Positions 3,888 to 21,052 of a stretch of 32,768 nt of DNA are shown piece by piece (the first letter of the stretch is position 1; every line of letters starts with the position of its first letter). The DNA is from Pelotomaculum sp. PtaU1.Bin035. Lineage in GTDB: Bacteria > Bacillota > Desulfotomaculia > Desulfotomaculales > Pelotomaculaceae. Below the pieces are notes generated by a model that saw only the letters and a program-made list of their open reading frames with translations, was not told where the DNA came from and ran no database searches. Location of the stretch: NCBI GenBank assembly GCA_002067965.1, contig MVRN01000082.1:1-32768 (forward strand), in the 5' to 3' direction. A program made the translations under genes and the position numbers.

Positions 3888-4295
3888 CTTGTTGGATGCC
3901 GTTAACATGAGGTATTCTCCAGTAGATATTTGGAAGAAGCATTGAAAGTTGGGTCCGATAAAATTCAGTCAATTTAAAGCGATTATTGGCGAGGGGTTGT
4001 CTCAAAAGTTGAATTCATGAAAAGCAACTCCGCGGGACATGCTAAAATAGCTATAGATTCAAATGCCTTGCTCCACTTGCGTTGTGGAACGAGGCATTTT
4101 TGTGCTCATTTTAACCCACTAAAGTTACTTATGACAAAGCCCCTTCCTTTATAAATTCCTAATATATCATAAAAAATTTCTTAAATGTGCCAAATTGATC
4201 CATGTTGTCATAAAAATAGTGTAGAAACCTTTCTGGACATGAGGGGAGCCTGTCTGATTAATGCCAAGATTTTCATTACTTTACGGGGAGAGTTA
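3888..4295. other. Intergenic stretch between icd and the membrane-protein gene
   Basis: Apart from the terminator at 4061-4101, I see no gene in these 400 bases. A segment near 3993-4010 (GGGGTTGTCTCAAAAG) resembles the outer end of some insertion sequences, but no partner end or transposase frame is present, so at most it is a remnant. The last 100 bases are AT-rich and carry the leader of the next gene. Confidence 0.5.
4061..4101 (+). terminator. Rho-independent terminator after icd
   Basis: A 16-position stem (4061-4076 with 4084-4099, one C-A mismatch and one wobble) with a 7-nt loop runs into TTTTTG. The A-run on the left arm means that it could also work on the minus strand. Confidence 0.8.
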
Positions 4296-5030
4296 TTGGC
4301 TTTGAAATATTTGCGCCGGAACATAACACTAAGTCTATTTTTAATCCTGTTGTCCCTGCTTTTATACCTGACCCATTTTTTGTTATTCGGGGACATCCAT
4401 CACATCTTAATTTATTTTATAGGGGATCTAGCTTTCTTGCCAATAGAAGTATTGTTAGTCACCCTAATTTTTCACAGGTTGCTGAACGAGAGAGAAAAAA
4501 GAGTTATGTTGAAAAAACTATATATGGTCATCGGAGCTTTTTACAGTGAAGTAGGGACCTGGCTATTGAAATTTTTTGCAAGCGCCGGTTCACATTCCGA
4601 AAACCTTATCATAAAAGATCATTGGTCTGAGCAAGATTTTAACAATGCGGACATATTTATCAAAAATTATTGCAGTAAAATAGATAGCGCAAATTGCGAT
4701 CTGGTGGTTTTACGCGGTTACCTGATTGAAAAAAGGGACTTCCTGCTGCGCCTATTGGAAAACCCCAATTTGCTTGAAAACGAGTCCTTTACAGAACTGT
4801 TATGGGCTGTATTCCACTTGACCGAGGAACTTGTGGTCAGGCAAAATATAAAGCAGCTTTCGCACACTGATTCCGAACATCTCTCTATTGATATAAATCG
4901 GGCATATATTTCCCTGATCCTGGAATGGTTGCAGTATATGAAACATCTGAAAGAGAATTATCCTTACCTGTTTTCCCTTGCTTTGAGAACGAATCCTTAC
5001 GACCCGGACGCGTCACCGGTCTTCAAATAA
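4296..5030 (+). CDS. Uncharacterised membrane protein with two N-terminal transmembrane segments
   Basis: I do not recognise this protein. As called it has 244 residues: a short basic start (LKYLRRN), two hydrophobic stretches at about residues 8-30 and 38-58 (the second reads IYFIGDLAFLPIEVLLVTLI), then a soluble, mixed-charge, mostly helical C-terminal part of about 180 residues. There are no cysteine motifs or nucleotide-binding motifs. The frame is open back to an ATG at 4185, but GGGGAG at 4285-4290 sits 5 nt before a TTG at 4296 (and 11 nt before a TTG at 4302), and the hydrophobic segments begin right after it, so I prefer the TTG. It appears monocistronic, with over 150 AT-rich bases on its 3' side. 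A sensory or signalling role is possible but not shown. Confidence 0.7.
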   Translation: MALKYLRRNITLSLFLILLSLLLYLTHFLLFGDIHHILIYFIGDLAFLPIEVLLVTLIFHRLLNEREKRVMLKKLYMVIGAFYSEVGTWLLKFFASAGSHSENLIIKDHWSEQDFNNADIFIKNYCSKIDSANCDLVVLRGYLIEKRDFLLRLLENPNLLENESFTELLWAVFHLTEELVVRQNIKQLSHTDSEHLSIDINRAYISLILEWLQYMKHLKENYPYLFSLALRTNPYDPDASPVFK

Positions 5031-5273: not shown

Positions 5274-5720
5274 ATGGAAATCAGTATCTATAATAACGAG
5301 GTATTAATAAATCATTTTATGAATCCGAGTAACGTTGGAAAAATTGAGAATGCTGACGGAATTGGAACGGCAGGCAATCCCTCATGTAGCGATTATGTAA
5401 AGATATACATTAAAGTCGACGGGAACCAATTAAAAGACATAAAATATGAAGTGCATGGCTGCCCTGCAGCTATTGCCACGTCCAGCGTTTTTAGCGAACT
5501 GGTTAAAGGTAAGCCGATTATGGAAGCCTTAGATGTAAATGATCGAGACGTTGTAAAGGCTTTAAACGGCCTACCTGAACAAAAATTACATTGTTCTTGT
5601 ATGGCTGTGGAGGCTTTCGATAAAGCTGTTATAGACTGGGTTATGCGAATCCTTCCAGGTTCGAAGGGTGAGATTGAATCAATGGTTAAATCCATCCAAA
5701 AGGATAAATTGGATGGATAA
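5274..5720 (+). CDS. NifU/IscU-like iron-sulfur cluster scaffold protein
   Basis: This 148-residue cytoplasmic protein matches the IscU/NifU N-terminal scaffold, on which Fe-S clusters are built before transfer. The three scaffold cysteines are all present in the expected settings: C38 in GNPSCSDY (with the adjacent conserved Asp at 40), C63 in HGCPAAIATSS, and C107 in KLHCSCMAVEA. An extra C109 two residues after C107 is not usual in IscU. The LPPVK chaperone-binding motif of IscU is replaced by GLPEQK. An in-frame upstream extension exists to 5202, but AGGGGG at 5257-5262 precedes the ATG at 5274 and family length fits. No cysteine desulfurase is adjacent. It is the first gene of the metal-cofactor block, with its own promoter and a separate promoter behind it. 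Confidence 0.88.
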   Translation: MEISIYNNEVLINHFMNPSNVGKIENADGIGTAGNPSCSDYVKIYIKVDGNQLKDIKYEVHGCPAAIATSSVFSELVKGKPIMEALDVNDRDVVKALNGLPEQKLHCSCMAVEAFDKAVIDWVMRILPGSKGEIESMVKSIQKDKLDG

Positions 5721-5824
5721 ACTAATAGTTCATCTTGTGTTGATGTCTCTAAATATTTAAAAAAATATATTGAAGTAATTTAGGTTAATCAATTTATAAT
5801 ACTTAAAATCCTGCTATAATATAA

Positions 5825-5854
5825 TTGACATATTGAAATATATTCGGGTATAAT
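5825..5854 (+). promoter_or_regulatory. Consensus sigma-A promoter of the NifX-DUF5320-MinD operon
   Basis: A perfect TTGACA at 5825-5830 and a perfect TATAAT at 5849-5854 are separated by 18 bp. The TTG start of the first gene is about 60 nt downstream. It suggests strong, housekeeping-type transcription of the operon beginning at 5917. Confidence 0.8.
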
Positions 5855-5916
5855 AATAATGAAATAGTGGCCATAACTTATTTGGTTGTTAGAGAATCGA
5901 GAGAAGGTGCTTAAAG

Positions 5917-6279
5917 TTGAAAATAGCAATTTCCGCTCAGGGACAAACACTTGAAAGCAAGGTAGATCTTAGATTTGGCCGGTGCAACTGGTTTATCGTG
6001 GTAGATACGGATACGGGTGATTACCGGGCTGTAAGTAATGATCAAAATTTGAACGCTGCTCAAGGTGCCGGTATTCAATCAGCGGAAATAGTCAGCCGCC
6101 AGGGAGTAGAAGCTGTAATCTCGGGGCACTGCGGGCCAAAAGCTTTTCGGACATTAAGTGTTGCGGGTATTAAGATATTTACCGGCGCCGAAGGCACGGT
6201 AGCAGATACCCTGGAAAGATTTAAAAAAGGTATGCTAACAGAAGCGGAAGAGGCAGATGTGGAAGGTCACTGGGTTTAA
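5917..6279 (+). CDS. NifX/NifB-C-terminal-fold (dinitrogenase FeMo-cofactor biosynthesis family) protein
   Basis: This is a 120-residue single-domain protein of the NifX/NafY/NifB-C-terminal fold, a family that binds metal-sulfur cofactors; Desulfovibrio ORP with its Mo-Cu-S cluster is a member. Visible hallmarks are the MKIAISAQG start strand, LRFGRCNWF near residues 18-26 with C23, and the glycine loop SGHCGPKAF with a second cysteine near residue 69. It begins with TTG at 5917, supported by GAGAAGGTG at 5901-5909. No nitrogenase genes are nearby, so a nif role is unlikely. It leads an apparent operon with two DUF5320-like proteins and two MinD-type ATPases. The bound cofactor cannot be read from sequence. 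Confidence 0.87.
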   Translation: MKIAISAQGQTLESKVDLRFGRCNWFIVVDTDTGDYRAVSNDQNLNAAQGAGIQSAEIVSRQGVEAVISGHCGPKAFRTLSVAGIKIFTGAEGTVADTLERFKKGMLTEAEEADVEGHWV

Positions 6280-6313
6280 ATTTTATCAAAATTTTTTGGG
6301 AGGTGTGTAAAAA

Positions 6314-6526
6314 GTGCCGAGGGGAGATGGAACAGGGCCGCAAGGCCGGGGTCCGGGATCAGGCAGGCGTTTGGGTCCGTGTGGTACTGGCGCTGGTCAG
6401 AGCCAGGGCCAGGGACAAGGACAAGGACAGGGTCAGGGTCAGGGTAAAGGACGCTGTGGCCGTGGTGGCGGCCGGGGAGCCGGGCAGGGCCAAGGACGTG
6501 GAGGACAGGGTAGAGGCTACTGTTAG
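6314..6526 (+). CDS. DUF5320-like Gly/Gln-rich small protein with GQ repeats
   Basis: This 70-residue protein starts with GTG at 6314, 8 nt after GGGAGGTG. Its N-terminus (DGTGPQGRGPGSGRR, C23) carries the pattern typical of DUF5320 proteins found beside NifX and MinD-type genes in anaerobes. The middle is a low-complexity run of Gly-Gln dipeptides encoded by tandem CAGGGN hexamers at about 6397-6446, and the tail is Gly/Arg-rich, ending in a C-terminal cysteine (GRGYC). It has three cysteines in all (C23, C48, C70). An overlapping frame at 6303-6542 encodes an Ala/Val/Asp/Arg-rich product without family features and is rejected. The function is unknown; the protein could be a flexible metal-binding or partner protein. 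Confidence 0.8.
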   Translation: MPRGDGTGPQGRGPGSGRRLGPCGTGAGQSQGQGQGQGQGQGQGKGRCGRGGGRGAGQGQGRGGQGRGYC

Positions 6527-6562
6527 CTTTACGAAATACTAAGGCAGGGGAGGTAATGTATT

Positions 6563-6892
6563 ATGCCGGGATTTGATGGTACCGGTCCATTGGGTATGGG
6601 TATAATGACAGGACGCGGACGCGGTTTTTGTATAAGTAATATTCTGCCTGGTACCGGTTTAGCTCCAAGGCTTGGCCGTGGTGGCCGGCGCGGCTGGTGG
6701 CAATCCGACTTTGCCAACGGAATGCTTGTCGGACTGGGCGGGTACTTTGCCCATTCCTTATTGGCAAAGCATTTTGCGCCTCATGTAAGCGGCGAAGATG
6801 AGCTTAACCTTCTCAAGGAAGAAGCAGTTTACCTGGAAAGCGCTCTTGAACAAGCTAGAAAACGGATTAAAGAACTGGAATATAAAGAGTAG
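6563..6892 (+). CDS. DUF5320 family protein with C-terminal coiled coil
   Basis: This 109-residue protein opens with the DUF5320 signature DGTGPLGMGIMTGRGRGF followed by C23, the same position as in the preceding protein. A central Arg/Gly/Trp stretch and a hydrophobic segment (about residues 50-68, with GMLVGLGGYFAHSLL) lead to an acidic/basic heptad-like helix (about 78-108, ending in KRIKELEYK), so it may oligomerise or associate with a membrane or partner. GGGGAGG lies 8-14 nt before the ATG. It sits between the other DUF5320-like gene and the first MinD-type ATPase, with gaps of 36 and 24 nt, in the same operon. Role unknown. Confidence 0.82.
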   Translation: MPGFDGTGPLGMGIMTGRGRGFCISNILPGTGLAPRLGRGGRRGWWQSDFANGMLVGLGGYFAHSLLAKHFAPHVSGEDELNLLKEEAVYLESALEQARKRIKELEYKE

Positions 6893-6916
6893 AAACACCC
6901 TTCGGGGGGAAATTAA

Positions 6917-7780
6917 ATGACAATAAATTTGACTGTTGCCGTGGCAAGCGGCAAGGGAGGGACAGGCAAGACTACTGTTTCTGTAAATCTTGCCTGTGTT
7001 GCGGCAGCAACAGGATATAAGGCAGCTTATCTGGATTGTGACGTGGAAGAGCCAAACGGGCACCTCTTCCTAAAACCCCGCATTGCGCGCCGCTACCCGG
7101 TCAGCGTACCGGTGCCGGCGATTGATACCGATAAGTGTATCGCCTGCGGCGCCTGCGGGGAGATTTGTCAATACAGCGCTATCCTGTGCATTAACAAAAA
7201 TGTTCTCACTTTCGAAAAAATGTGCCACGGGTGCGGAGGTTGTCAGCTGGCCTGTCCCACCGCGGCAATTACCGAAAAAGGCAGGGCAATTGGATTCGTA
7301 GAAGAAGGAGAAGCTGGCGGGGAAATTGCTTTCTACCATGGCAAACTTAACATAGGCGAGTCCATGAGCCCGCCGCTAATCAGGGCGGTTCGTTCGGCAG
7401 GCCAAAATAATCCATTAAACATTATTGACGCGCCCCCAGGCACCTCCTGCCCGGTAATCGCAGCGATTAAAGGCGTGGATTTCGTAATTCTAATCACCGA
7501 ACCGACCCCCTTCGGACTGAACGACTTGGGACTTGCCTTAGACATGATCAAAGAACTGGGTATCCCCCACGCGGTAGTTGTAAACAGGTCCGATCCGGAT
7601 AACAACCTGGCTCGTGATTTCTGCAAGGAAAGAGAAGTCAAGCTGCTGGCGGAAATCCCGGACGACCGCAGGATAGCCGAGGCTTATTCCAGAGGCGAAT
7701 TAACATTTTCCGCCGCCCCCGGCTACCGGGGAGTTTTCGAAGATCTCCTGATTTCTATTGTGAAAGAGGCGAGACGGTGA
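6917..7780 (+). CDS. MinD-superfamily P-loop ATPase with inserted ferredoxin domain (first copy)
   Basis: This 287-residue protein is a deviant-Walker (MinD/NifH/Mrp class) ATPase interrupted by a bacterial ferredoxin domain. The P-loop is SGKGGTGKTT at residues 11-20, the switch-I-like DCDVEEPN at 40-47, and the Walker B-like IIDAPPGT near 172-179. The insert carries two [4Fe-4S] ligand sets: C74/C77/C80/C84 and C103/C106/C109/C113, each final Cys in the ferredoxin context. Such pairs are known in the Desulfovibrio ORP complex and in many anaerobes and archaea. The gene overlaps the next by 4 nt (GTGA), so the two are probably translated together and may form a heterodimer. It is presumably an ATP-driven Fe-S or metal-cluster transfer protein; its substrate is unknown. 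Confidence 0.9.
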   Translation: MTINLTVAVASGKGGTGKTTVSVNLACVAAATGYKAAYLDCDVEEPNGHLFLKPRIARRYPVSVPVPAIDTDKCIACGACGEICQYSAILCINKNVLTFEKMCHGCGGCQLACPTAAITEKGRAIGFVEEGEAGGEIAFYHGKLNIGESMSPPLIRAVRSAGQNNPLNIIDAPPGTSCPVIAAIKGVDFVILITEPTPFGLNDLGLALDMIKELGIPHAVVVNRSDPDNNLARDFCKEREVKLLAEIPDDRRIAEAYSRGELTFSAAPGYRGVFEDLLISIVKEARR

Positions 7781-8655
7781 AAGAAATAGTAATTGTCAGC
7801 GGCAAAGGGGGTACCGGTAAGACAAGCGTGGCGGCTTCCCTGGTTGCCTTAGCTGAAAGGTTAGTGGTGGCAGACTGTGATGTGGATGCGGCGGACCTGC
7901 ACCTGGTGCTTGAGCCCCATATAAAAAAAACAGAGGACTTCACCGGTGGAAAGAGCGCCGGAATTGTTCCCGGCAGATGCAGCAATTGTGGAAAGTGCCA
8001 TGAAATATGCAGGTTCAATGCTGTAATAAAAGATGAGAGCAAACAACCGGCTTATTTCATTGATCATGTAGCCTGTGAAGGGTGTGGAGTTTGCAGTTAC
8101 TTTTGCCCGGGGAAAGCCATCGATTTCAAGCCGTCCGTCAACGGCCAGTGGTTTATTTCCGATACCCGCTACGGCCCGATGGTTCATGCCAGGCTCGGCA
8201 TCGCAGCAGAAAATTCCGGCAAGCTGGTTTCTCTGGTGCGCGATCAGGCAAAAATCATCGCTGAAAAAGACAATCTGCCATACATCATTGTTGACGGCCC
8301 ACCGGGGATCGGCTGCCCGGTTATTTCTTCGGTCACCGGCGCCGACGCCGTGCTGATCGTTACTGAACCCACTGTGTCAGGTGGACACGACCTGGAGCGG
8401 GTGGCCGAACTGGCCAAACATTTTAAAATCCCTACTTTCCTCTGCATTAACAAGTATGATATCAATCCTGAAATAGCTAAAAACATAGAGGAAAAAACAG
8501 AGGCGAATGGAATTGCCGTTATAGGAAGGATCCACTATGACAAGGCTGTCACCGAAGCCCAGATCAAAGGGCTCCCGGTGGTGGCATTCCAGGATTCCGC
8601 CGCGGCAAGAGATATGAGAACTATATGGGAAAACTTAGAAAGCGTATTAGGTTAA
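7777..8655 (+). CDS. MinD-superfamily P-loop ATPase with inserted ferredoxin domain (second copy)
   Basis: This 292-residue paralogue of the preceding protein has the same plan: P-loop SGKGGTGKTS at residues 8-17, DCDVDAADLH at 33-42, ferredoxin cysteines C68/C71/C74/C78 and C100/C103/C106/C110, and Walker B-like IVDGPPGIGCP near 172-182. The GTG start at 7777 overlaps the stop of the first copy. The Cys beside the Walker B segment (PPGxxCPV) is shared with the first copy and could contribute to cluster handling at the dimer interface; this is an inference from MinD/NifH geometry. The next gene follows after a 100-nt gap and may still be on the same transcript. Confidence 0.9.
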   Translation: MKEIVIVSGKGGTGKTSVAASLVALAERLVVADCDVDAADLHLVLEPHIKKTEDFTGGKSAGIVPGRCSNCGKCHEICRFNAVIKDESKQPAYFIDHVACEGCGVCSYFCPGKAIDFKPSVNGQWFISDTRYGPMVHARLGIAAENSGKLVSLVRDQAKIIAEKDNLPYIIVDGPPGIGCPVISSVTGADAVLIVTEPTVSGGHDLERVAELAKHFKIPTFLCINKYDINPEIAKNIEEKTEANGIAVIGRIHYDKAVTEAQIKGLPVVAFQDSAAARDMRTIWENLESVLG

Positions 8656-8755
8656 AATCTCAGTTTATAAAATGAAGTTTCATTAAAACGCTTTTAGCCT
8701 GTGAAAGCCAGGAATGAAGTTAATCAAAAATAAAACAGTGAAAGGAAGTAAATAA

Positions 8756-9100
8756 ATGAAAATTGTCTTACCTATCGCAGGAGACCAGTTATGTATGCAT
8801 TTTGGGCATTGTGAAAGATTTGATTTTTTTGACGTCAATCCTCAAACTAAAGAAATCCTTAACAAAGAATCATTTACTCCTCCACCTCATGAGCCTGGTT
8901 TGTACCCCAGATTACTGGGTGAAAAAGGAGCTGACATTATCATTGCCGGCGGTATGGGCCCGCGGGCGCAGGAATTGTTCAACCAGAATGGCGTAGATGT
9001 AGTAGTCGGCGTCAATTCAGCCTCAGGCAGTCCGGAAGATATCGTCAGGCTGTTTTTGGCCGGCAATCTGGAAACAGGGGATAATGCCTGCGATCATTAA
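8756..9100 (+). CDS. Second NifX/NifB-C-terminal-fold protein
   Basis: This 114-residue member of the dinitrogenase iron-molybdenum cofactor biosynthesis family has the family's MKIVLPIAG opening, HFGHCERFDFF near residues 16-26 (C13 and C19 close together), and the glycine-rich loop GGMGPRAQELF. It ends in an acidic tail with a final Cys-Asp-His, a potential metal ligand cluster. It differs clearly from the first NifX-fold protein in its cysteine pattern, so the two are not simple duplicates. GGAAG lies 9-13 nt before the ATG. The placement between the MinD-type ATPases and an Mrp ATPase matches the ORP gene neighbourhood of Desulfovibrio. Confidence 0.88.
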   Translation: MKIVLPIAGDQLCMHFGHCERFDFFDVNPQTKEILNKESFTPPPHEPGLYPRLLGEKGADIIIAGGMGPRAQELFNQNGVDVVVGVNSASGSPEDIVRLFLAGNLETGDNACDH

Positions 9101-9134
9101 TTGTATACTGCAAAAATAAGGAGGAATTAAAACA

Positions 9135-9965
9135 ATGCAACAAAATTCAAATTCTACATGTGACAATGAAAAAAACAGCGGATGTGGTCATGAAGGTAAT
9201 ACCGGCATTGAGAAATTGACCGGAAACGAATTTAGCAATATCAGGATTGTTATTGCTGTCATGAGTGGAAAAGGCGGTGTGGGGAAATCTTCAATAACAT
9301 CTATACTTGCTTGTGAATATAGAAAAAAAGGCTATTTAGTGGGAGTGCTGGACGCGGACATAACCGGCCCGAGCCTGCCAAAGATGTTTGGTATAAAGAG
9401 TGGGGTGAAAAGCAACGGCTCTGCGTTGTTGCCTTCAATTAGCGATAATGGGATAAGAGTTATGTCTCTAAACTTGTTGACCAGCAATGAAGATGACCCG
9501 GTTATCTGGCGCGGGCCGGTTATTTCCGGTACAGTCAAGCAGTTTTGGACTGATGTGGCCTGGGGTGACCTAGATTACCTTTTTGTTGATTTGCCGCCCG
9601 GCACTGGTGACGTTCCTTTGACTGTAATGCAATCCCTGCCTCTCAACGGGCTAATCGTTGTATCTTCACCGCAAGATCTTGCCGTTATGATTGTAAGCAA
9701 GGCAATAAAGATGGCCCAATATATGAATATTCCCATACTTGGTCTGGTTGAAAATATGAGTGGCGCTGTTTGCCCGCATTGTGGCGAGGCATTTCAATTG
9801 TTTGGACCTAGCCGGGGTGAAGAAATTGCCCGGAAATTTCAGATCCCGTATATTGGCGGCTTGCCGGTAGACCCCATTTTTTCAAAGCTCTGCGATCAAG
9901 GTAAGATTGAGGAGTATGATAGTAACCTTTTTGCCAATTTTATTCCTAAAAATATGGGAGTTTAA
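9135..9965 (+). CDS. Mrp/NBP35-family iron-sulfur cluster carrier ATPase
   Basis: This 276-residue ATPase of the Mrp/ApbC/NBP35 family is a dimeric cytoplasmic carrier of [4Fe-4S] clusters. The deviant Walker A is SGKGGVGKSS at residues 44-53, followed by LDADITGPSLPKMFG. The family's bridging-cluster motif CPHC is at C213/C216. The short N-terminal extension has two cysteines, C9 and C17 (GCGHEG), which recalls the N-terminal Fe-S site of NBP35 but with fewer ligands. A GGAGG lies about 10 nt before the ATG. The stop codon directly abuts the start of the ferredoxin gene, so the two are translationally coupled; the ferredoxin may supply electrons or be a client. Confidence 0.92.
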   Translation: MQQNSNSTCDNEKNSGCGHEGNTGIEKLTGNEFSNIRIVIAVMSGKGGVGKSSITSILACEYRKKGYLVGVLDADITGPSLPKMFGIKSGVKSNGSALLPSISDNGIRVMSLNLLTSNEDDPVIWRGPVISGTVKQFWTDVAWGDLDYLFVDLPPGTGDVPLTVMQSLPLNGLIVVSSPQDLAVMIVSKAIKMAQYMNIPILGLVENMSGAVCPHCGEAFQLFGPSRGEEIARKFQIPYIGGLPVDPIFSKLCDQGKIEEYDSNLFANFIPKNMGV

Positions 9966-10148
9966 GTGAAACCAATAATAGATAGTGAAACATGCGTAGC
10001 TTGTGCCATGTGTTATGATGTGTGTCCTGCGGATCCAAAGGTATTTGAAATAAGCGATATTGCCAAAGTCGTTCACCCGGAAGCATGTATGGGATGCATG
10101 ACTTGCGAGGAAAATTGCCCTACAGACTCAATAACAATAACTGAATAA
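9966..10148 (+). CDS. 2[4Fe-4S] ferredoxin
   Basis: This 60-residue bacterial-type ferredoxin starts with GTG immediately after the TAA of the Mrp gene. Two complete ligand sets are present: C10/C13/C16/C20 with the following Pro, and C41/C44/C47/C51 with the following Pro, so it should carry two low-potential clusters. The loop between them (about residues 21-40) is slightly longer than in clostridial ferredoxin. It is the last gene of the block and is followed by a terminator at 10210. Confidence 0.93.
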   Translation: MKPIIDSETCVACAMCYDVCPADPKVFEISDIAKVVHPEACMGCMTCEENCPTDSITITE

Positions 10149-10209
10149 TATATAAAATAGGGTTTGAGCGAAGGTATGTAAGGACTCTGGGTAAGAGTGA
10201 GGTCTACTA

Positions 10210-10236
10210 AGCTGGTTTATCCAGCTATTTTTTTTA
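10210..10236 (+). terminator. Rho-independent terminator of the Fe-S/metal-cofactor block
   Basis: A 6-bp stem AGCTGG/CCAGCT (10210-10215 with 10221-10226) and a TTTAT loop are followed by ATTTTTTTTAT. Confidence 0.75.
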
Positions 10237-10371
10237 TGAATTTAGCTTTTCATAAAGCTAAACATTAACACTTTGAAACATCTATCTTCAGGATCCAAGG
10301 CGCAACCGCAAACCAGCATTATTGAAGCCGAAGGTGAAGCAGAGAACCTACAATTTTACAGGATTAAAAAC

Positions 10372-10421
10372 ATTACATGAGGCTAATAGTAAATAATTAT
10401 TTACTATTAGCCTCATGTAAT
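10372..10421. promoter_or_regulatory. Perfect 50-bp palindrome, probable MarR operator
   Basis: Bases 10372-10396 are the exact reverse complement of 10397-10421, with no spacer. The right arm includes the -35 of the marR promoter at 10400. Inner half-sites such as TAGTAAAT/ATTTACTA have the size and symmetry of MarR-family operators, but the dyad is far longer than the usual 16-20 bp. A T-rich stretch after it could also let it act as a terminator. The rest of the 322-base gap 10149-10470 holds only the upstream terminator, this element and the marR leader. Confidence 0.75.
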
Positions 10422-10428
10422 ATATACT
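10400..10428 (+). promoter_or_regulatory. Promoter of the marR efflux operon
   Basis: TTTACT at 10400-10405, a 17-bp spacer and TATACT at 10423-10428. The -35 lies inside the right arm of the palindrome, so a protein bound there would block RNA polymerase. Confidence 0.6.
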
Positions 10429-10470
10429 ATTTTTATTATTAACCAAATTGTTTATACGGGAGGTGTTAGA

Positions 10471-10908
10471 ATTAACAACCTGGAAAATGTGGCCGGTGAC
10501 TTCCTTGCTGTATTAGCCTTCATGCGCGATAAATTTTTCGCGACGCTTGAACAGATAACGCGCCCCCAAATGAGCCACGTTCAATACCGCGCGGTATCGC
10601 TGTTGTACCGGAAGGGTTCTCTGTCTATGTCGGAACTGGCTAAAGAGATGCATATATCCAAACAGCAGCTTACACCCCTGGTATACAAACTGATTAATAA
10701 TGGTCTTGTAATTAGAAAAACAGATGAAGACGACCGGCGCATTGTGCTAATAGAAATAACTGAAACAGGGAGAAGAAAGGTAGAAGAAATGCTGCCCGAA
10801 ATAAAACTCGTACTCATGGAAAAGCTCGAAACGCTTCCCGTGGCGGAGTTGGACGAACTTATGCAAATGTTGAAAAGGATTCACGAAATCATTAAAAACG
10901 TTGAATAA
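10471..10908 (+). CDS. MarR-family transcriptional regulator, probable ATT start
   Basis: This winged-helix MarR-type regulator has about 145 residues. The DNA-binding core is visible: SMSELAKEMHISKQQLTPLVYKL is split across helix 3 and the recognition helix, then the wing RKTDEDDRR followed by the strand IVLIEITETG. The C-terminus forms a long dimerisation helix. The GTG at 10489 is 25 nt from the nearest Shine-Dalgarno (GGGAGG at 10458-10463), while ATT at 10471 is 7 nt from it and yields the common leader NNLENVAGDFL; I therefore take ATT as the start. The gene heads an efflux operon and likely represses it through the palindrome upstream. Its inducing ligand is unknown. Confidence 0.85.
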   Translation: MNNLENVAGDFLAVLAFMRDKFFATLEQITRPQMSHVQYRAVSLLYRKGSLSMSELAKEMHISKQQLTPLVYKLINNGLVIRKTDEDDRRIVLIEITETGRRKVEEMLPEIKLVLMEKLETLPVAELDELMQMLKRIHEIIKNVE

Positions 10909-10944
10909 AGCCGTACACCAAAATTCTTGAAGGTGGTTATATGG

Positions 10945-11646
10945 ATGAAGAAAATAAAAAAGGTATTGCTGATCCTGGCGGTGCTGATCCTTGCCGGTGG
11001 GGCGGCCGGGCTCTCCTACTATATTTACGAGAGTGTCAACTGCTTCTCTACGGAAAACGCCCAGATAACCTCCGATATGATTACCCTGACGCCGGAGGTT
11101 ACCGGCAAAGTGAAAAGCTGGGACGTCAGGGAAGGGGATTATGTAAAAGCGGGACAGGTGCTTGGCAAACAGGATGTCAGTGCGCTTGTGACCAATACCG
11201 CGATGAATCCACAAACGCTGGCCTATTCAGCGGATACCATTATCTCAAAAGCGGATATCAAATCTCCGATTGACGGCAAGGTGGTGCAGTCGAATGTGAT
11301 CAAAGGCCAGGTTGTGTCGCCCGGCATGGAGATTGCGGCGATTGCCGATACTTCACACATCTACATCAAGGCCAATATTGAAGAAACGGATATTATTAAG
11401 ATCAAACCAGGTCAAAAAGTAGAGATCAAGATCGACGCCTACCCCCGTCAAACCTTTTACGGCTACGTTGAGAGCATAGGCCAGGCTACGCAGTCGGCGT
11501 TCAGTCAGTTCCCGTCACTTAATACAAGCGGGACTTTCTCAAAAGTGACCCAGTTGATCCCGGTGAAGATTGCCATAACGAACGTTGATAACCTTACACT
11601 CATGCTAGGGATGAATGCCACAGTGAAAATCCAGATCAAACAGTGA
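10945..11646 (+). CDS. HlyD/EmrA-like membrane-fusion (efflux adaptor) protein, compact form
   Basis: This 233-residue protein has an N-terminal anchor (about residues 7-27) after a lysine-rich start, then a split biotinyl-lipoyl domain (TPEVTGKVKSWDVREGDYV near 50-68 and KSPIDGKVVQSNVIKGQ near 108-124) and a beta-barrel. The long alpha-hairpin that normally separates the lipoyl halves is nearly absent, so it is a short adaptor. ATG 10945 is preceded by AGGTGG at a spacing of 8; an upstream in-frame extension to 10927 lacks a better signal. It follows marR by 36 nt and precedes a second adaptor by 14 nt. It should link an exporter to the cell envelope; the substrate is unknown. Confidence 0.85.
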   Translation: MKKIKKVLLILAVLILAGGAAGLSYYIYESVNCFSTENAQITSDMITLTPEVTGKVKSWDVREGDYVKAGQVLGKQDVSALVTNTAMNPQTLAYSADTIISKADIKSPIDGKVVQSNVIKGQVVSPGMEIAAIADTSHIYIKANIEETDIIKIKPGQKVEIKIDAYPRQTFYGYVESIGQATQSAFSQFPSLNTSGTFSKVTQLIPVKIAITNVDNLTLMLGMNATVKIQIKQ

Positions 11647-11660
11647 AAGGATGTTAAGGT

Positions 11661-12806
11661 ATGCTAAGACGGATAAAAAGGCCCCTGGCCATTGTCGCGG
11701 CTCTGATACTGGCGTTTGCCGCCTACGGCTGTGCCGGACGGAATGCGGACAAGGCAGTGTCGGTGATGACGGCGGCAGCTGATAATCAGGAATTGGAAAC
11801 AACGCTGGAACTGAGCGGCGTCCTGGTGCAGGCGCAGAAGGTTGACATATCCAGTAAAATTTCGGGGAAGGTAATCAGCCTGGGTTACAACACCGGCAGC
11901 GCCGTCAAGGCGGGGGACGTCCTAATTCAGTTGGATACGGAAGTATTGAGCGCCCAGCTTATGCAGGCCCAGGCCGGACTGCAATCTGCGGAAGCTGCCG
12001 CGGATGCTGCGCGGAATCAGGCTTCTATAACAAAAATAAACCTGGACGCGGCCCAAAAACTATATGACAGGACCAAGGCTCTTAATGAATCGGGCGCAGT
12101 ATCTCAAAGCCAGATGGACGAGGTTGCAGATAAGCTTAATACGGCGGAAAAACAGTTTGAGAATGCTGCCGGACCCGCTCAGGACCAGGCGCAGGCCGCG
12201 GTCAACACAGCCCGCGCCAATATAAAAAATCTCCAGGCGCAAATTGATAATGCTACCATCAGAAGTCCCATTGACGGATTATTGGTTGGCCAGAATGTCA
12301 ACGTTGGAGAAGTGCTCTCGCCGGGCGTGGCGGTAATATCAATCGTGGACACTTCAACCCTTAAACTGAAAAGCACTGTAACCCAGGATTTATTGCCGCT
12401 TTTATCAGCCGGACAGGAAATGGACATAACAGTTGACATCTACCCGGACAGTAAATTTATTGGGACTGTTTCCAGCGTCGGGCCTATCGCGGTGAACACG
12501 GGTGAACTATTCCCAGTGGAAATCGCCATTAACAACAACGGAAGCCTGACGGCAGGGTTGACTGCCCATGCCTCGGTGACCGCTAAAACACAAGGAATTG
12601 TGGTCCCATCGTCGTCTGTGATCCAAAACGGCGGGGAAAGCTATATATTTGTAATCAAGGACAATATCGCTTCGAAACGTGTTGTTAAAATAGGGCTTAA
12701 AAATGATAAAGGCACCCAGATTTTGAAAGGGCTTAACGCAGGTGAACTGGTTGCCGTTACCAATGCCGGCAGTCTTACCGACAGTATGCCGGTAATAACC
12801 AATTAA
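11661..12806 (+). CDS. RND/MacA-type efflux adaptor lipoprotein
   Basis: This 381-residue protein begins with a lipoprotein signal peptide: basic MLRRIKRP, a hydrophobic core and the lipobox AAYGC with Cys at residue 24. After that come a lipoyl half (SGKVISLGYNTGSAVKAGD), a full alpha-helical hairpin rich in Ala/Gln (about residues 95-195), the second lipoyl half (IRSPIDGLLVGQNVNVGE), a beta-barrel and a membrane-proximal domain (VVPSSSVIQNGGESYIFV). It is thus a complete adaptor, unlike the compact one just upstream. It lies in the marR operon, followed 39 nt later by the ABC exporter genes. In MacA/YknX systems such proteins assist an ABC exporter. Confidence 0.88.
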   Translation: MLRRIKRPLAIVAALILAFAAYGCAGRNADKAVSVMTAAADNQELETTLELSGVLVQAQKVDISSKISGKVISLGYNTGSAVKAGDVLIQLDTEVLSAQLMQAQAGLQSAEAAADAARNQASITKINLDAAQKLYDRTKALNESGAVSQSQMDEVADKLNTAEKQFENAAGPAQDQAQAAVNTARANIKNLQAQIDNATIRSPIDGLLVGQNVNVGEVLSPGVAVISIVDTSTLKLKSTVTQDLLPLLSAGQEMDITVDIYPDSKFIGTVSSVGPIAVNTGELFPVEIAINNNGSLTAGLTAHASVTAKTQGIVVPSSSVIQNGGESYIFVIKDNIASKRVVKIGLKNDKGTQILKGLNAGELVAVTNAGSLTDSMPVITN

Positions 12807-12845
12807 TCGGCCAATTATTTTATCCGAAGTGGAGATAGTAAATTT

Positions 12846-14573
12846 ATGTATAGATTATTCCGATTCTTCAGGCCATACACCCTGAATTTATCCTGGGTAA
12901 TAGTGTTTCTTTTCGCTCAATCTATTGCGGAACTGTATCTCCCGACGCTCATGGCGGACGTGGTTAATAACGGCATGATGAAGGGCGATACCGGCTACAT
13001 TTGGAAATACGGGAGTTACATGCTGTTGGTGGCGCTGGGGAGCAGCTTTTGCTCCATAGTGGGCAGTTACCTGTCTTCAATAGTCGGGATGGGCTTCGGC
13101 AAGGACGTCCGCGACAAGGTTTTTTCGCGGGTGGAGAGCTATTCCCTGCAGGAGTTCGATAAAATCGGGACCGCTTCCCTTATTACCAGGACCACCAACG
13201 ATATTACCCAGGTGCAGACCCTTGTTGTAATGGGTCTGCGCTTTATGGTCTACGCTCCGATCATGTGCGTCGGGGGTATCATCATGGCCTTTTCCAAGGA
13301 TAAGCGGCTTACTCTGATCCTGGCTGTGGTCCTGCCTGTTATGCTGATCCTGATCGGGAGCCTCGCCGGCGTGATCGTGCCCCTGTTCAAAGCAATGCAA
13401 GTCAAGCTCGACAAGGTAAACCTGGTTCTACGCGAGAATCTGACCGGGATCAGGGTGATCAGGGCTTTTAACAGACTTAGGAGCGAGAATGAACGTTTTA
13501 GGAAAGCAAACCGCGATCTGACCGATAACTCAATTAAAGTCAATAAAATAATGGCTTCGATCCAGCCGGCCATGATCATCATTATGAATTTAACCTCTAT
13601 TTCAATCATATGGTTCGGCGGCCACCGCATCAGTCAGAACGTAATGCAGGTGGGCGACATGATGGCGTTTCTCCAATACGCCATGCAGGTCATGTTTTCA
13701 ATCATCATGGTGACTATAATGTTTGTCATGGTCCCGAGAGCCCAGGCATCCGCCACCCGGATTAATGAAGTGCTGGATGTGGAACCCGTGATCTGCGACC
13801 CGCCGCGAGGAAGAGAATCCGGCGGCCGGGTAGGTCATGTGGAATTCCGGGACGTTACTTTCAGCTATCCCGGAGCCGAACTGCCGGCTGTCAGGAATAT
13901 ATCTTTCGCAGCCCATCCAGGCGAGGTGACTGCTATTATAGGTGGTACGGGTTCGGGTAAATCCACCCTGATCAACCTGATCCCGCGGTTTTACGATGTT
14001 GAAAGCGGCTGTGTCCTGGTTGACGGAGTGGATGTCCGGCAGATGGCTCAGAAAGAACTCAGGGCGAAGATCGGTTTTGTGCCCCAGACCCCAATCCTTT
14101 TCAGCGGGACGGTTGCGGAAAATATACGGTATGGTAAGGATGACGCGACCGATGAAGAGATATCTCACGCGGCGGAGATTGCTCAGGCGAGTGAATTCAT
14201 TGCCGCGATGAAAAATGGATATGAATCTCTGATTTCCCAGGGAGGCACTAACCTTTCCGGTGGACAGAAACAAAGACTTTCCATTGCCCGTGCTCTGGTC
14301 AGGAGACCCGGGATTTATATTCTGGACGACAGTTTTTCAGCCCTTGACTTTAAGACTGACGCCCGGTTGCGGGCGGCGCTTAAGAAAGAGACCACTGCTT
14401 CCACCTTGATCATTGTGGCTCAGAGGGTGGGAACGGTTATGGACGCTGACAGGATTATCGTTCTGGATGAGGGGCGGATTGTTGGCATCGGCAAGCATAA
14501 AGAACTTATGGGTACTTGTGTGGTATACCGTGAGATTGTATCCTCCCAATTGTCGGAAGAGGAGATTGCGTGA
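12846..14573 (+). CDS. ABC multidrug exporter half-transporter with degenerate ATPase site
   Basis: This 575-residue protein has six transmembrane helices (about residues 15-305) fused to an ATP-binding domain. The Walker A is GGTGSGKST near 366-374 and the signature motif is canonical LSGGQ near 470. However, the Walker B run ends ILDDS, with Asp where the catalytic Glu is expected, and the switch loop reads VAQRVG with Gln instead of His. These two changes together mark the degenerate partner of heterodimeric exporters such as TM287/288, LmrCD and BmrCD. The next gene supplies the partner and starts 4 nt downstream. Located in the membrane, it probably exports drugs or lipid-like compounds under MarR control. 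Confidence 0.93.
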   Translation: MYRLFRFFRPYTLNLSWVIVFLFAQSIAELYLPTLMADVVNNGMMKGDTGYIWKYGSYMLLVALGSSFCSIVGSYLSSIVGMGFGKDVRDKVFSRVESYSLQEFDKIGTASLITRTTNDITQVQTLVVMGLRFMVYAPIMCVGGIIMAFSKDKRLTLILAVVLPVMLILIGSLAGVIVPLFKAMQVKLDKVNLVLRENLTGIRVIRAFNRLRSENERFRKANRDLTDNSIKVNKIMASIQPAMIIIMNLTSISIIWFGGHRISQNVMQVGDMMAFLQYAMQVMFSIIMVTIMFVMVPRAQASATRINEVLDVEPVICDPPRGRESGGRVGHVEFRDVTFSYPGAELPAVRNISFAAHPGEVTAIIGGTGSGKSTLINLIPRFYDVESGCVLVDGVDVRQMAQKELRAKIGFVPQTPILFSGTVAENIRYGKDDATDEEISHAAEIAQASEFIAAMKNGYESLISQGGTNLSGGQKQRLSIARALVRRPGIYILDDSFSALDFKTDARLRAALKKETTASTLIIVAQRVGTVMDADRIIVLDEGRIVGIGKHKELMGTCVVYREIVSSQLSEEEIA

Positions 14574-14577
14574 CAAT

Positions 14578-16536
14578 ATGAGTAGTCGAAATTCTCAAAG
14601 GCCCGCCGGCCCGGCGCGCAGGGGCCCCATGGGTCCTGGCCATATGATGGGGCCGCCTGTTGAAAAAGCAAAAGATTTTCGGGGGACTCTGGCTAGGCTG
14701 ACCGTGTATCTGAGGCCGGAGAGACACCGTTTCATCGTGGTATTTTTCTTGGCTGTTGCCAGTACGATTTTCTCGATTATCGGCCCCAAAATCATGGGGA
14801 AAGCAACGACCAAGCTGGCTGAAGGGGTCCTGGCCAAATATGCCTATTATATGCAGCTTGCAACGGCGATCCAGGAAAAAATGCCGGCTGCAGTTATTGA
14901 CAAACTGGAGAAACAGCCGGTTCCGGGCTTTGATTTTGGCTATATCGGGAAAATTCTACTATTGCTGGTTGTATTTTATCTGATCAGTGCTCTATGCAGC
15001 TATGCGATGGGATACATCATGTCCGGCGTGTCCCAGAACACTGTTTACAGGATGCGTAACGACGTTAAGGACAAACTTGACCGCCTGCCGCTTAAATATT
15101 TTGACCAGCGCACATATGGCGAGATTCTGAGCAGGGTCACGAATGACATGGACAATATTGCCACAACGCTACAGCAGAGTATGATCCAACTGATCACGTC
15201 TTTAGTGACTGTGATAGGGATATTAATCATGATGCTGAGCATCAGCCCTGTTATGACTCTAATCGCGTTGGTGACGCTTCCTGCCAGTATGCTTATCACT
15301 TTGTTGATCACTAAAAATTCTCAGAATTTTTTTGCCGGCCAGCAGAAATGCATCGGGGAATTAAACGGTCATGTTGAGGAAATGTACTCGGGGCATAAAA
15401 TCGTTAAAGTGTTTGGACATGAGGAAGATTCAATAGCGAAATTCAAGGGAATTAACGCCAGATTGTACGGAGTCGGCTGGAAAGCGCAGTTTATATCCGG
15501 CATTATCTTCCCGGCCTTAAACTTTGTCAATAACATAGGGTATGTGTTTATCTGCGTCGTTGGAGGCTTGCTGGTGGCTCATAAAAAAATCGAGGTGGGT
15601 GATATACAGGCGTTCATCCAATATACGAGGCAGTTCACCCAGCCGATCATCCAGGTTGCCAATATAGCCAACGTGTTGCAGTCCACAGTAGCCTCCGCGG
15701 AACGGGTTTTTGAGATCCTGGATGAGGAAGAGCAAATCCCCGATCGGGAAGACGCCAAGGTGATCATGTTCCCGGAAGGCAGGGTCAAATTTGAACATGT
15801 GAAATTTGGCTACAAGGAAGAAGCCCCGCTAATGGAAGACCTGAGCATAGATGTTAAGGAAGGAAACACCGTCGCCATCGTCGGGCCGACGGGAGCGGGC
15901 AAAACAACTCTGGTTAATCTGATTATGCGCTTTTATGAGGTCCAAGGTGGCCGGATCACTGTCGACGGCGTGGATATCAAGGACATGAAGCGGGGGGATC
16001 TGCGCGCGATGTTCGGCATGGTGCTGCAAGATACCTGGTTGTTTAACGGAACCATATGGGACAATATAGCTTATGGACGTGAGGGAGCCACGGAGGAAGA
16101 AATCATCAACGCGGCCAAAGCCGCCAATGCCGATCACTTCATCAAGACCCTCCCGGACGGCTATGGCACCATCTTAAACGAGGAGGCCTCCAATATTTCG
16201 CAAGGCCAGAAACAGCTTCTGACAATCGCCCGCGCGATTTTAGCCGACCCGGCCATCCTCATCCTCGATGAAGCCACCAGCAACATCGATACGAGGACCG
16301 AGGTGCTGGTCCAGAAGGCGATGGCAAACCTAATGAAGGGAAAAACCAGTTTTGTGATCGCGCACAGGCTTTCAACTATCCGTGACGCTGACCTGATCCT
16401 GGTGATGAACAACGGGGCCATCATCGAGCAGGGCAGTCACACCGAACTACTGGCCAGGGGCGGCTTCTACGCTGGACTGTATAACAGCCAGTTTACGGGC
16501 GGCAACCTTGGTGACAAGGCTTACCCGGACGGCTAA
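14578..16536 (+). CDS. ABC multidrug exporter half-transporter, catalytic partner
   Basis: This 652-residue ABC half-transporter has a Gly/Pro/Met-rich cytoplasmic N-tail (GPMGPGHMMGPP near residues 18-29), six transmembrane helices and an ATP-binding domain. Walker A GPTGAGKTT (about 436-444), Walker B ILILDEATS with catalytic Glu, and the H-loop IAHRLSTI are canonical, while the signature reads ISQGQ instead of LSGGQ. That is the exact complement of the preceding protein: combined, they give one working and one degenerate nucleotide site. A longer frame back to 14413 overlaps the previous gene; the ATG at 14578 with GAGGAG 14 nt upstream fits better. The extra loop after TM1 (about residues 75-115) is typical of the YheH/BmrD side. 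It ends 5 nt before the convergent ligase gene with no terminator visible. Confidence 0.93.
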   Translation: MSSRNSQRPAGPARRGPMGPGHMMGPPVEKAKDFRGTLARLTVYLRPERHRFIVVFFLAVASTIFSIIGPKIMGKATTKLAEGVLAKYAYYMQLATAIQEKMPAAVIDKLEKQPVPGFDFGYIGKILLLLVVFYLISALCSYAMGYIMSGVSQNTVYRMRNDVKDKLDRLPLKYFDQRTYGEILSRVTNDMDNIATTLQQSMIQLITSLVTVIGILIMMLSISPVMTLIALVTLPASMLITLLITKNSQNFFAGQQKCIGELNGHVEEMYSGHKIVKVFGHEEDSIAKFKGINARLYGVGWKAQFISGIIFPALNFVNNIGYVFICVVGGLLVAHKKIEVGDIQAFIQYTRQFTQPIIQVANIANVLQSTVASAERVFEILDEEEQIPDREDAKVIMFPEGRVKFEHVKFGYKEEAPLMEDLSIDVKEGNTVAIVGPTGAGKTTLVNLIMRFYEVQGGRITVDGVDIKDMKRGDLRAMFGMVLQDTWLFNGTIWDNIAYGREGATEEEIINAAKAANADHFIKTLPDGYGTILNEEASNISQGQKQLLTIARAILADPAILILDEATSNIDTRTEVLVQKAMANLMKGKTSFVIAHRLSTIRDADLILVMNNGAIIEQGSHTELLARGGFYAGLYNSQFTGGNLGDKAYPDG

Positions 16537-20635: not shown

Positions 20636-21052
20636 ATGATAAAAAAGTTAAAAAAGCTAGGTTTGAAATTAACTCCTCAAAGACTGGCAATTTTAAATCT
20701 GCTTGAAGGTAATACAAAACACCCGTCGGCGGAGGAAATATACAAACAATTAAAACCCCAGTACCCCTCGTTGTCTCTCGCCACGGTATACAATACCCTT
20801 GAAGTGTTGGCCAGAGCGGGGGAACTGCAAGAGATAAGGATCAATGCGGACAAAAGGCATTTTGATCCAAACCCGGCCCCCCACACCCATTTTTTATGCC
20901 GGATTTGCGAATCGGTGCATGACCTGGACGCCGGTCCTATTGAAATACAAGCGCCTTATAATATTAACGGCTATCTGGTGGAAGAATTCACGCTTTATTT
21001 TTATGGGATTTGCCCGGGATGTCTGGAAAGGGAAAGAAGCAAAAACCAATAA
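20636..21052 (+). CDS. perR: Fur-family peroxide-sensing repressor PerR
   Basis: This 138-residue regulator has a winged-helix DNA-binding half (LTPQRLAILNLLEG, then LSLATVYNTLEVLARAG with the recognition helix) and a metal-binding dimer half. The structural zinc cysteines are present as two CxxC pairs (FLCRIC and GICPGC). Regulatory-site residues fit PerR: the His of KHPSAEEIY, Asp of RHFDPN, the His pair in PHTHF, and Asp rather than Glu in VHDLD, the residue that distinguishes PerR from Fur in B. subtilis. The perfect PerR box on its promoter supports this. Iron-bound PerR is inactivated by peroxide through His oxidation, which would release this gene and likely the rubrerythrin downstream. 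Confidence 0.9.
   Translation: MIKKLKKLGLKLTPQRLAILNLLEGNTKHPSAEEIYKQLKPQYPSLSLATVYNTLEVLARAGELQEIRINADKRHFDPNPAPHTHFLCRICESVHDLDAGPIEIQAPYNINGYLVEEFTLYFYGICPGCLERERSKNQ

Follow-up and report, generated by a model that had tools for sequence, protein, structure and literature searches.

A nine-gene NifX-MinD-DUF5320 cassette of Pelotomaculum as a candidate iron-sulfide store-and-dispense module of anaerobes

We analyzed a window that comprises the whole of contig C82 (MVRN01000082.1; 32,768 bases) from the genome assembly of Pelotomaculum sp. PtaU1.Bin035 (2.54 Mb, 128 contigs). Our subject is a cassette of nine genes at positions 5274 to 10148, all on the + strand, in the order NifU, NifX1, GQ, DUF5320, MinD1, MinD2, NifX2, Mrp, and ferredoxin. 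We tentatively read this cassette, at somewhat less than even confidence, as a module with which anaerobes may store and dispense a metal sulfide, most likely iron sulfide. The reading draws on gene content, conserved linkage, gene fusions, and conserved ligands, from which we infer iron sulfide as the bound species, its storage, the direction in which it moves, and an electron- and ATP-dependent step. The new element of the analysis is a series of natural gene fusions that tie NifX1, a tail, the DUF5320 coil, and ferredoxin to one another. The cassette and its predicted signals are as follows, with ORP standing for the orange protein of Desulfovibrio.

5274..5720, + strand: NifU/IscU-type scaffold, 148 amino acids (aa), ATG at 5274; Pfam NifU_N, E 4e-35, from a scan that used the longer open reading frame from 5202
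5825..5854, + strand: predicted promoter-like TTGACA-18-TATAAT upstream of NifX1, 12/12 match to the consensus
5917..6279, + strand: NifX1, ORP/MTH1175-type NifX-fold protein, TTG start; PF02579 (Nitro_FeMo-Co), 89 bits, E 3e-25
6314..6526, + strand: GQ protein, 70 aa, 44% Gly, isoelectric point (pI) 11.7; DUF5320 N-terminal motif without the coiled coil
6563..6892, + strand: DUF5320 protein; PF17253, 75.2 bits against a cut-off of 27, E 1e-20
6917..7780, + strand: MinD1, MinD/ParA-type ATPase with 2[4Fe-4S] insert; CbiA/ParA P-loop and Fer4 matches (Pfam)
7777..8655, + strand: MinD2, MinD/ParA-type ATPase with 2[4Fe-4S] insert, GTG start; CbiA/ParA P-loop and Fer4 matches (Pfam)
8756..9100, + strand: NifX2, counterpart of the C-terminal MrpORP domain; PF02579, 66.5 bits, E 3e-18; NF041136 positions 265-365, 112 bits
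9135..9965, + strand: Mrp/NBP35 ATPase, counterpart of the N-terminal MrpORP domain; PF10609, 298 bits; NF041136 positions 2-232, 323 bits
9966..10148, + strand: 2[4Fe-4S] ferredoxin, 60 aa, Fer4; GTG start immediately after the Mrp stop
10210..10226, + strand: predicted terminator-like hairpin after ferredoxin, 6-pair stem followed by a T-run

This gene content agrees with a preliminary description of the locus, which had named two NifX-fold proteins, a MinD pair with cluster inserts, Mrp, NifU, a ferredoxin, and two DUF5320-type proteins; Pfam recovers all of them except GQ, which is assigned by motif. The ORP-like core proposed there was likewise borne out. The nearest solved structure to NifX1 is D. 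gigas ORP (2wfb; 73 bits, E 2e-19), with MTH1175 (1eo1; 68 bits) also matching, and Mrp and NifX2 match the two halves of the NCBIfam MrpORP model (NF041136, whole-model cut-off 450). By their sequences, NifX2 and Mrp are a split MrpORP, and the ORP likeness of the cassette is correct as homology. The Pfam match of Mrp is to ParA/NUBPL (E 6e-89), and the protein carries a CPHC motif. MinD1 and MinD2, whose reading frames overlap by 4 bases, each contain two CxxCxxCxxxC motifs, and in MinD1 all eight cysteines are retained without exception across an alignment of 13 sequences (the window's included) that reaches down to 44% identity. Because a promoter match precedes NifX1 and a hairpin follows ferredoxin, the layout suggests that the eight genes from NifX1 to ferredoxin are transcribed as one unit, and the NifU gene in front may form a separate one. 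Pfam detects no cysteine desulfurase gene among the nine.

We assessed conserved linkage in two collections. The first is a set of 60 genomes including the window's own, in which 54 of the other 59 supplied 55 MinD1 regions; a strong MinD1 match is absent from the remaining relatives (G009, G017, G022, G030, and G059). For the second, bacterial and archaeal genomes were scanned, which gave at least 592 pattern matches, at least 328 of them confirmed. The best 80, which are not a random sample, served as named loci, and 37 of these retain full 5-kb flanks. Judged by their record titles, the named loci come from, among others, Planctomycetes, Desulfobacterales, Chloroflexota, Spirochaetes, Methanohalophilus, Thorarchaeota, and Altiarchaeota. 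A gene was counted as linked if it lay within 5 kb of MinD1 and on the same strand.

The cassette is a recurrent gene set and not a chance assembly. NifX accompanies MinD1 in 54/55 relatives' regions and 77/80 named loci, with two or more NifX genes in 39/55 and 58/80. A second MinD is present in 52/55 and 77/80, over-long open reading frames included: such a frame hid the second MinD gene in some loci flagged as fused, and the count of 77 takes in these cases. Mrp is linked in 40/55 regions and 37/80 loci, and DUF134 in 23/55 and 18/80. Stand-alone DUF5320 genes are linked in 31/55 and 40/80, and in 19/38 and 25/37 when only regions with 5 kb on both sides are considered. These DUF5320 counts come from clean profiles, since an iterated profile also caught out-of-frame readings of repeats (for example, window 6303-6542) and gave the looser count of 32/55 and 41/80. 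NifU is linked in only 17/55 regions and 21/80 loci, which makes its gene optional beside the near-constant NifX and MinD pair. By gene neighborhood, ferredoxin is a weakly linked partner (only 6/55 and 13/80, with a profile that was built from few sequences and also catches larger ferredoxin-like proteins). The linkage anticipated in the preliminary description thus stood for DUF5320, applied to a minority of loci for NifU, and was weak for ferredoxin. The association is also visible from DUF5320 outward: 19 of 30 DUF5320-centered loci of about 3.3 kb each, one of them the window, have a same-strand NifX, MinD, Mrp, or NifU gene. Five others have DUF134 (L027 also has an opposite-strand NifU), and six have none of these genes, although the wider region (L209) around one of the six, L022, shows NifX beside DUF5320. 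Separately, the L117 locus (G049:C13, about 200800-212200) carries the cassette twice, about 7.0 kb apart, and its two copies score equally or nearly so.

Most pieces of the window cassette occur inside longer proteins elsewhere. In L129, L133, L136, L150, L182, L200, and L203, one protein joins NifX1, a Gly/Arg/Met-rich tail, and the DUF5320 coiled coil, and scores over the PF17253 cut-off; NifX-tail proteins of L137 and L149 score below the cut-off, and that of L127 has no match. The first Pfam check covered ten proteins: one cation-efflux fusion, six over the DUF5320 cut-off, L137 and L149 under it, and L127 without a match. A profile of the coil only, trained on 33 stand-alone DUF5320 proteins of relatives and searched against 2291 genes, retrieved 11 non-DUF5320 proteins at E<=0.1, nine of which are NifX (Fisher P ~3e-7; this and the following P values ignore relatedness). 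Of 263 NifX proteins, 27 continue after the NifX domain into a Gly/Arg-rich stretch (a few of these, L107, L113, and L191, are over-long or of a His/Gly type); such a stretch occurs in 23 of 1195 other genes of 100 aa or more (P 5e-9). Such tails are found on 21/125 NifX1 and 6/138 NifX2 proteins (P 1e-3). The L183 NifX protein has a GQ-rich tail that resembles the 70-aa GQ protein of the window and does not match DUF5320 in Pfam.

Ferredoxin is tied to the system by fusions between it and the tail, as 5/23 ferredoxin-class proteins shorter than 200 aa contain a Gly/Arg-rich stretch (joined to a 2[4Fe-4S] ferredoxin in each of L127, L140, L151, L177, and L185). A single chain in L129 unites NifX1, tail, coil, and ferredoxin. 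The remaining genes also meet in single chains: MinD1 and MinD2 in L180 and L196, the only true fusions among eight loci flagged for any open reading frame above 400 aa; Mrp and NifX2 in L129, L133 (Pfam-confirmed), L156, and L166; NifX1 and NifX2 in L133 and L149; and NifU and Mrp in L140 (Pfam-confirmed), which encodes one 460-aa protein at 9715-11097 in a Planctomycete.

The tails recall IssA of P. furiosus, a NifX-type domain followed by a 70-residue cationic, Gly- and aromatic-rich tail that has been proposed to wrap an anionic thioferrate chain (PMC5524996). IssA stores thioferrate and reconstitutes ferredoxin in vitro, and its disassembly is proposed to occur under reducing conditions (PMC5524996). 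Because the fusions join NifX to tail and DUF5320, and because IssA is itself a NifX domain with a cationic tail, we read NifX1 and the DUF5320 proteins as a putative split IssA-like holder. The protein at 6563-6892 is a member of Pfam DUF5320 (PF17253), a family to which Pfam assigns no function. It has a cationic Gly/Arg-rich N-terminal half (pI 11.7 over the first 52 aa) and then a coiled-coil-like C-terminal segment. GQ has no Pfam match, and GQ and its counterparts in relatives share an N-terminal MPRGDGTGPxG...C motif with DUF5320 proteins. The median pI of DUF5320-class proteins is 9.5 among 101 full-length members (75 above 9) and 11.1 among 65 short ones, medians that take in some out-of-frame readings and genes fetched twice. 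As a further observation, proteins of L167, L156, L160, L006, and L096 combine NifX or the DUF5320 motif with a Gly/Arg-rich stretch and a zinc-ribbon-like CPxCG segment; the Zn_ribbon_8 match in L096 is below its cut-off.

The scaffold retains all its ligands, three Cys, one Asp, and one His in the order C, D, C, H, C. An alignment of 72 NifU proteins shows zero substitutions at these five positions, each of which is gapped in no more than two rows. The window scaffold scores 153 bits against TIGR03419, under the 187.9 cut-off, and it is the second IscU paralogue of the genome, the other copy lying on C52. A phylogenetic tree assigns the window NifU to a seven-member group (support 0.998), apart from a second group that comprises ten cassette NifU proteins from Pelotomaculum-like relatives (0.999); both groups lie outside a clade that holds 23 of the 25 cassette-unlinked NifU proteins (0.716). 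This topology places the window NifU outside the housekeeping IscU clade and suggests, with deep nodes poorly supported, that the cassette recruited NifU twice. Two relatives also carry second-NifU remnants with an internal stop that abut a partial Mrp (G011:C3:119594-120242 and G016:C45:5475-6123).

The identity of the metal was approached through neighboring genes. Fur occurs anywhere in the locus in 10/80 named loci, and it stands beside DUF5320 in three of 20 further regions (L205, L206, and L208). In L082, a cation-diffusion transporter bears a C-terminal NifX-fold domain (Pfam-confirmed). Of the 273 neighbors in the named loci, the nearest 148 were surveyed; radical SAM (12) leads their families, with sigma-54 activators (10), methyltransferases (10), and the metallo-beta-lactamase fold (8) next, followed by ARMT1-like phosphatase (7), DUF364, a putative heavy-metal chelation family (6), and Fur (6). 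Among these 148, molybdate and copper transport is not represented by any family of three or more members. The associations with Fur, DtxR, and cation efflux in some loci are circumstantial and favor iron over molybdenum. Several of these settings lie outside the MinD cassette: L205 has Fur, DUF5320, and ferredoxin at about 7-9 kb; L206, the same place as L006, has Fur, a DtxR-type iron repressor, DUF5320 proteins, and ferredoxin at about 1.5-4 kb; and L208 has NifX, two DUF5320 genes, and Fur. Proteins that cluster with the L082 fusion occur in the cassette neighborhood in L070, L078, and L117.

A working scheme can be drawn from these parts. NifX1 would nucleate or hold an anionic iron sulfide, and the two DUF5320-type proteins would act as a detached IssA-like tail whose cationic Gly/Arg-rich segments wrap the anion electrostatically, with the coiled coil of the larger one perhaps causing it to oligomerize. 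Ferredoxin and the eight-cysteine MinD1 and MinD2 would supply electrons in an ATP-gated manner, so that the stored polymer is broken into transferable [2Fe-2S] or [4Fe-4S] pieces. NifU, and Mrp together with NifX2 as the split MrpORP, would then accept these pieces and deliver them to apo-proteins. A bolder form of the idea, which we consider possible and rather doubtful, holds that DUF5320 proteins are detached cationic tails and that they and NifX-fold proteins together make up an iron-sulfide store widespread among anaerobes, the equivalent of ferritin; MinD1-MinD2, Mrp, and NifU would unload it with ATP and ferredoxin, and IssA would be one fused special case of a system that spans bacteria and archaea. 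In the open-licence literature searched, including passages of PMC5524996, PMC6345978, and PMC8351635, nothing identifies DUF5320 with an IssA-type tail or ties the MinD pair to it; the name DUF5320 occurs there in two papers, whose titles concern other subjects.

Several observations weigh against the storage reading. The whole DUF5320 protein of the window is near neutral (pI 7.9, net charge +1), only its N-terminal half being basic, and the window's own NifX1 has no tail. Under the looser count, stand-alone DUF5320 is found in 41/80 named loci, tailed NifX in 23/80, and either in 51/80; among the 37 loci with full flanks, 12 lack a stand-alone DUF5320 (clean count) and 10 lack both DUF5320 and a tailed NifX (looser count). 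Three of the four tail-ferredoxin proteins in the Pfam scan (L127, L177, and L185) have no DUF5320 match, L140 being over the cut-off and L151 lying outside that scan, and low-complexity Gly-rich sequence weakens profile scores in general. As to iron, Fur is found in only 1/55 relatives' regions (L091), the nearest Fur-like gene of the window, at 20636, is outside the cassette, and FeoB was detected by motif in one locus only (L162). NifX1 is also slightly closer to the Mo-Cu-S-binding ORP than to MTH1175 by the bit scores given above. A strict split-tail model, with DUF5320 in place of the tail, is not supported: because many loci hold a stand-alone DUF5320 and a tailed NifX together, the two are not mutually exclusive as a simple split predicts.

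The cassette could instead serve iron-sulfur assembly and delivery with nothing stored, NifU building clusters, the MinD pair and Mrp transferring them, the NifX proteins acting as small cluster carriers for client enzymes, and the Gly-rich proteins tethering or localizing the complex. We regard this as a plausible competitor that is probably not the answer. The intact ligands of NifU fit it, as do the NifU-Mrp and Mrp-NifX2 fusions and the finding that, in vitro, both aconitase and apo-Orp3-Orp4-Orp8 receive the MrpORP cluster (PMC6345978). Yet the scaffold is linked in only a minority of loci, no client enzyme family is prominent among the nearest neighbors surveyed, and the Gly/Arg-rich tails are left unexplained.

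An improbable alternative is a strict ORP complex, in which NifX1 bears a Mo-Cu sulfide cluster and thiometallates of molybdenum and copper are handled. D. gigas ORP is the best solved relative of NifX1, and the sigma-54 promoter of the orp operons (PMC6345978) has an echo in the sigma-54 activators among the neighbors of the named loci. However, the absence of a recurrent molybdate or copper transport family from the 148 neighbors, together with the Fur, DtxR, and cation-efflux associations, points to another metal, and the genes that flank the window cassette are one without a Pfam match (4185-5030) and a MarR regulator (10489). Still less probable, and in our view very unlikely, is that the MinD-type pair positions the complex at the cell pole or division site and that the metal clusters are structural or sensory. 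The MrpORP paper does describe polar localization and a putative involvement of the ORP complex in cell division (PMC6345978), but the insert cysteines are invariant across the MinD1 alignment, and no cell-division family appears in the list of commonest neighbors.

Three narrower roles were considered and set aside. The preliminary description had stated that nitrogenase genes are absent, which is correct for the cassette and incorrect for the genome, where nifH (C118 and C57) and nifB (C118) exceed curated cut-offs. A nitrogenase-specific role was rejected, as nifH went undetected at E<=1e-30 in 26 of the 54 relatives that carry the cassette (a hand count in which several genomes are incomplete). 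No dedicated client enzyme is obvious, the recurrent neighbors being mainly regulators (DUF134, sigma-54, and Fur), radical SAM proteins, methyltransferases, metallo-beta-lactamase-fold proteins, ARMT1-like proteins, and DUF364. NifB-like radical SAM chemistry was dismissed as well, since one representative recurrent neighbor matches only the generic PF04055 and the window cassette has none. Elsewhere in the window's genome (G000), on C50, a NifX-fold gene comes after a NifB-like one.

Beyond the cassette, a strong 20-pair inverted repeat at 10373-10420 separates it from an ordinary efflux string at 10489-16536, which consists of the MarR gene, two HlyD-like open reading frames (one Pfam-checked), and two ABC transporters.

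The reading bears on how iron and sulfur are stored, and the many iron-sulfur proteins loaded, in strict anaerobes. Ferritin mineralization uses oxygen. If the storage reading is true, DUF5320, a family without a function, would gain a testable role, and one system would take in the ORP complex, IssA, and the conserved MinD-pair cassette. The natural fusions put the parts of the storage idea in a single testable chain.

Among known systems, the general NifU/IscU and Mrp/NBP35 (ApbC) machinery has conserved ligands and P-loop family matches in common with the cassette, which differs in having as its scaffold a second IscU paralogue outside the housekeeping clade and no cysteine desulfurase. The ORP complex of Desulfovibrio (Orp3/Orp4/Orp5/Orp8/MrpORP; PMC6345978) was compared through the ORP structure and the MrpORP model. 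Both systems have a MinD-type pair with two [4Fe-4S] motifs each, an ORP-related NifX-fold protein, and an Mrp with a Di-Nase (NifX) domain. The two-domain MrpORP corresponds to separate Mrp and NifX2 genes in the window, and NifU, the two DUF5320-type proteins, and ferredoxin are additions to the ORP complex. The orp operons form a divergent pair under sigma-54-dependent promoter control (PMC6345978), whereas the window cassette lies on one strand with a sigma-70-type promoter match and no sigma-54 activator recognized in the two flanking genes.

IssA itself has been described from one archaeon; some members of its clade have little or no tail, MTH1175 is termed IssA-type, and an uncharacterized IssX clade stands beside it (PMC5524996). 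The tail of IssA is on the same chain as the NifX domain, in contrast to the window, where NifX1 ends at 120 aa and a tail-like segment is instead carried by each of two further proteins, one of which has a coiled coil. The cassette, likened to IssA by published description, adds ATPases, ferredoxin, and a scaffold to the IssA-like parts. The two have in common the NifX-type domain (IPR003731; PF02579 in window NifX1) and cationic Gly-rich segments, and the NifX-tail fusions of relatives resemble the IssA architecture.

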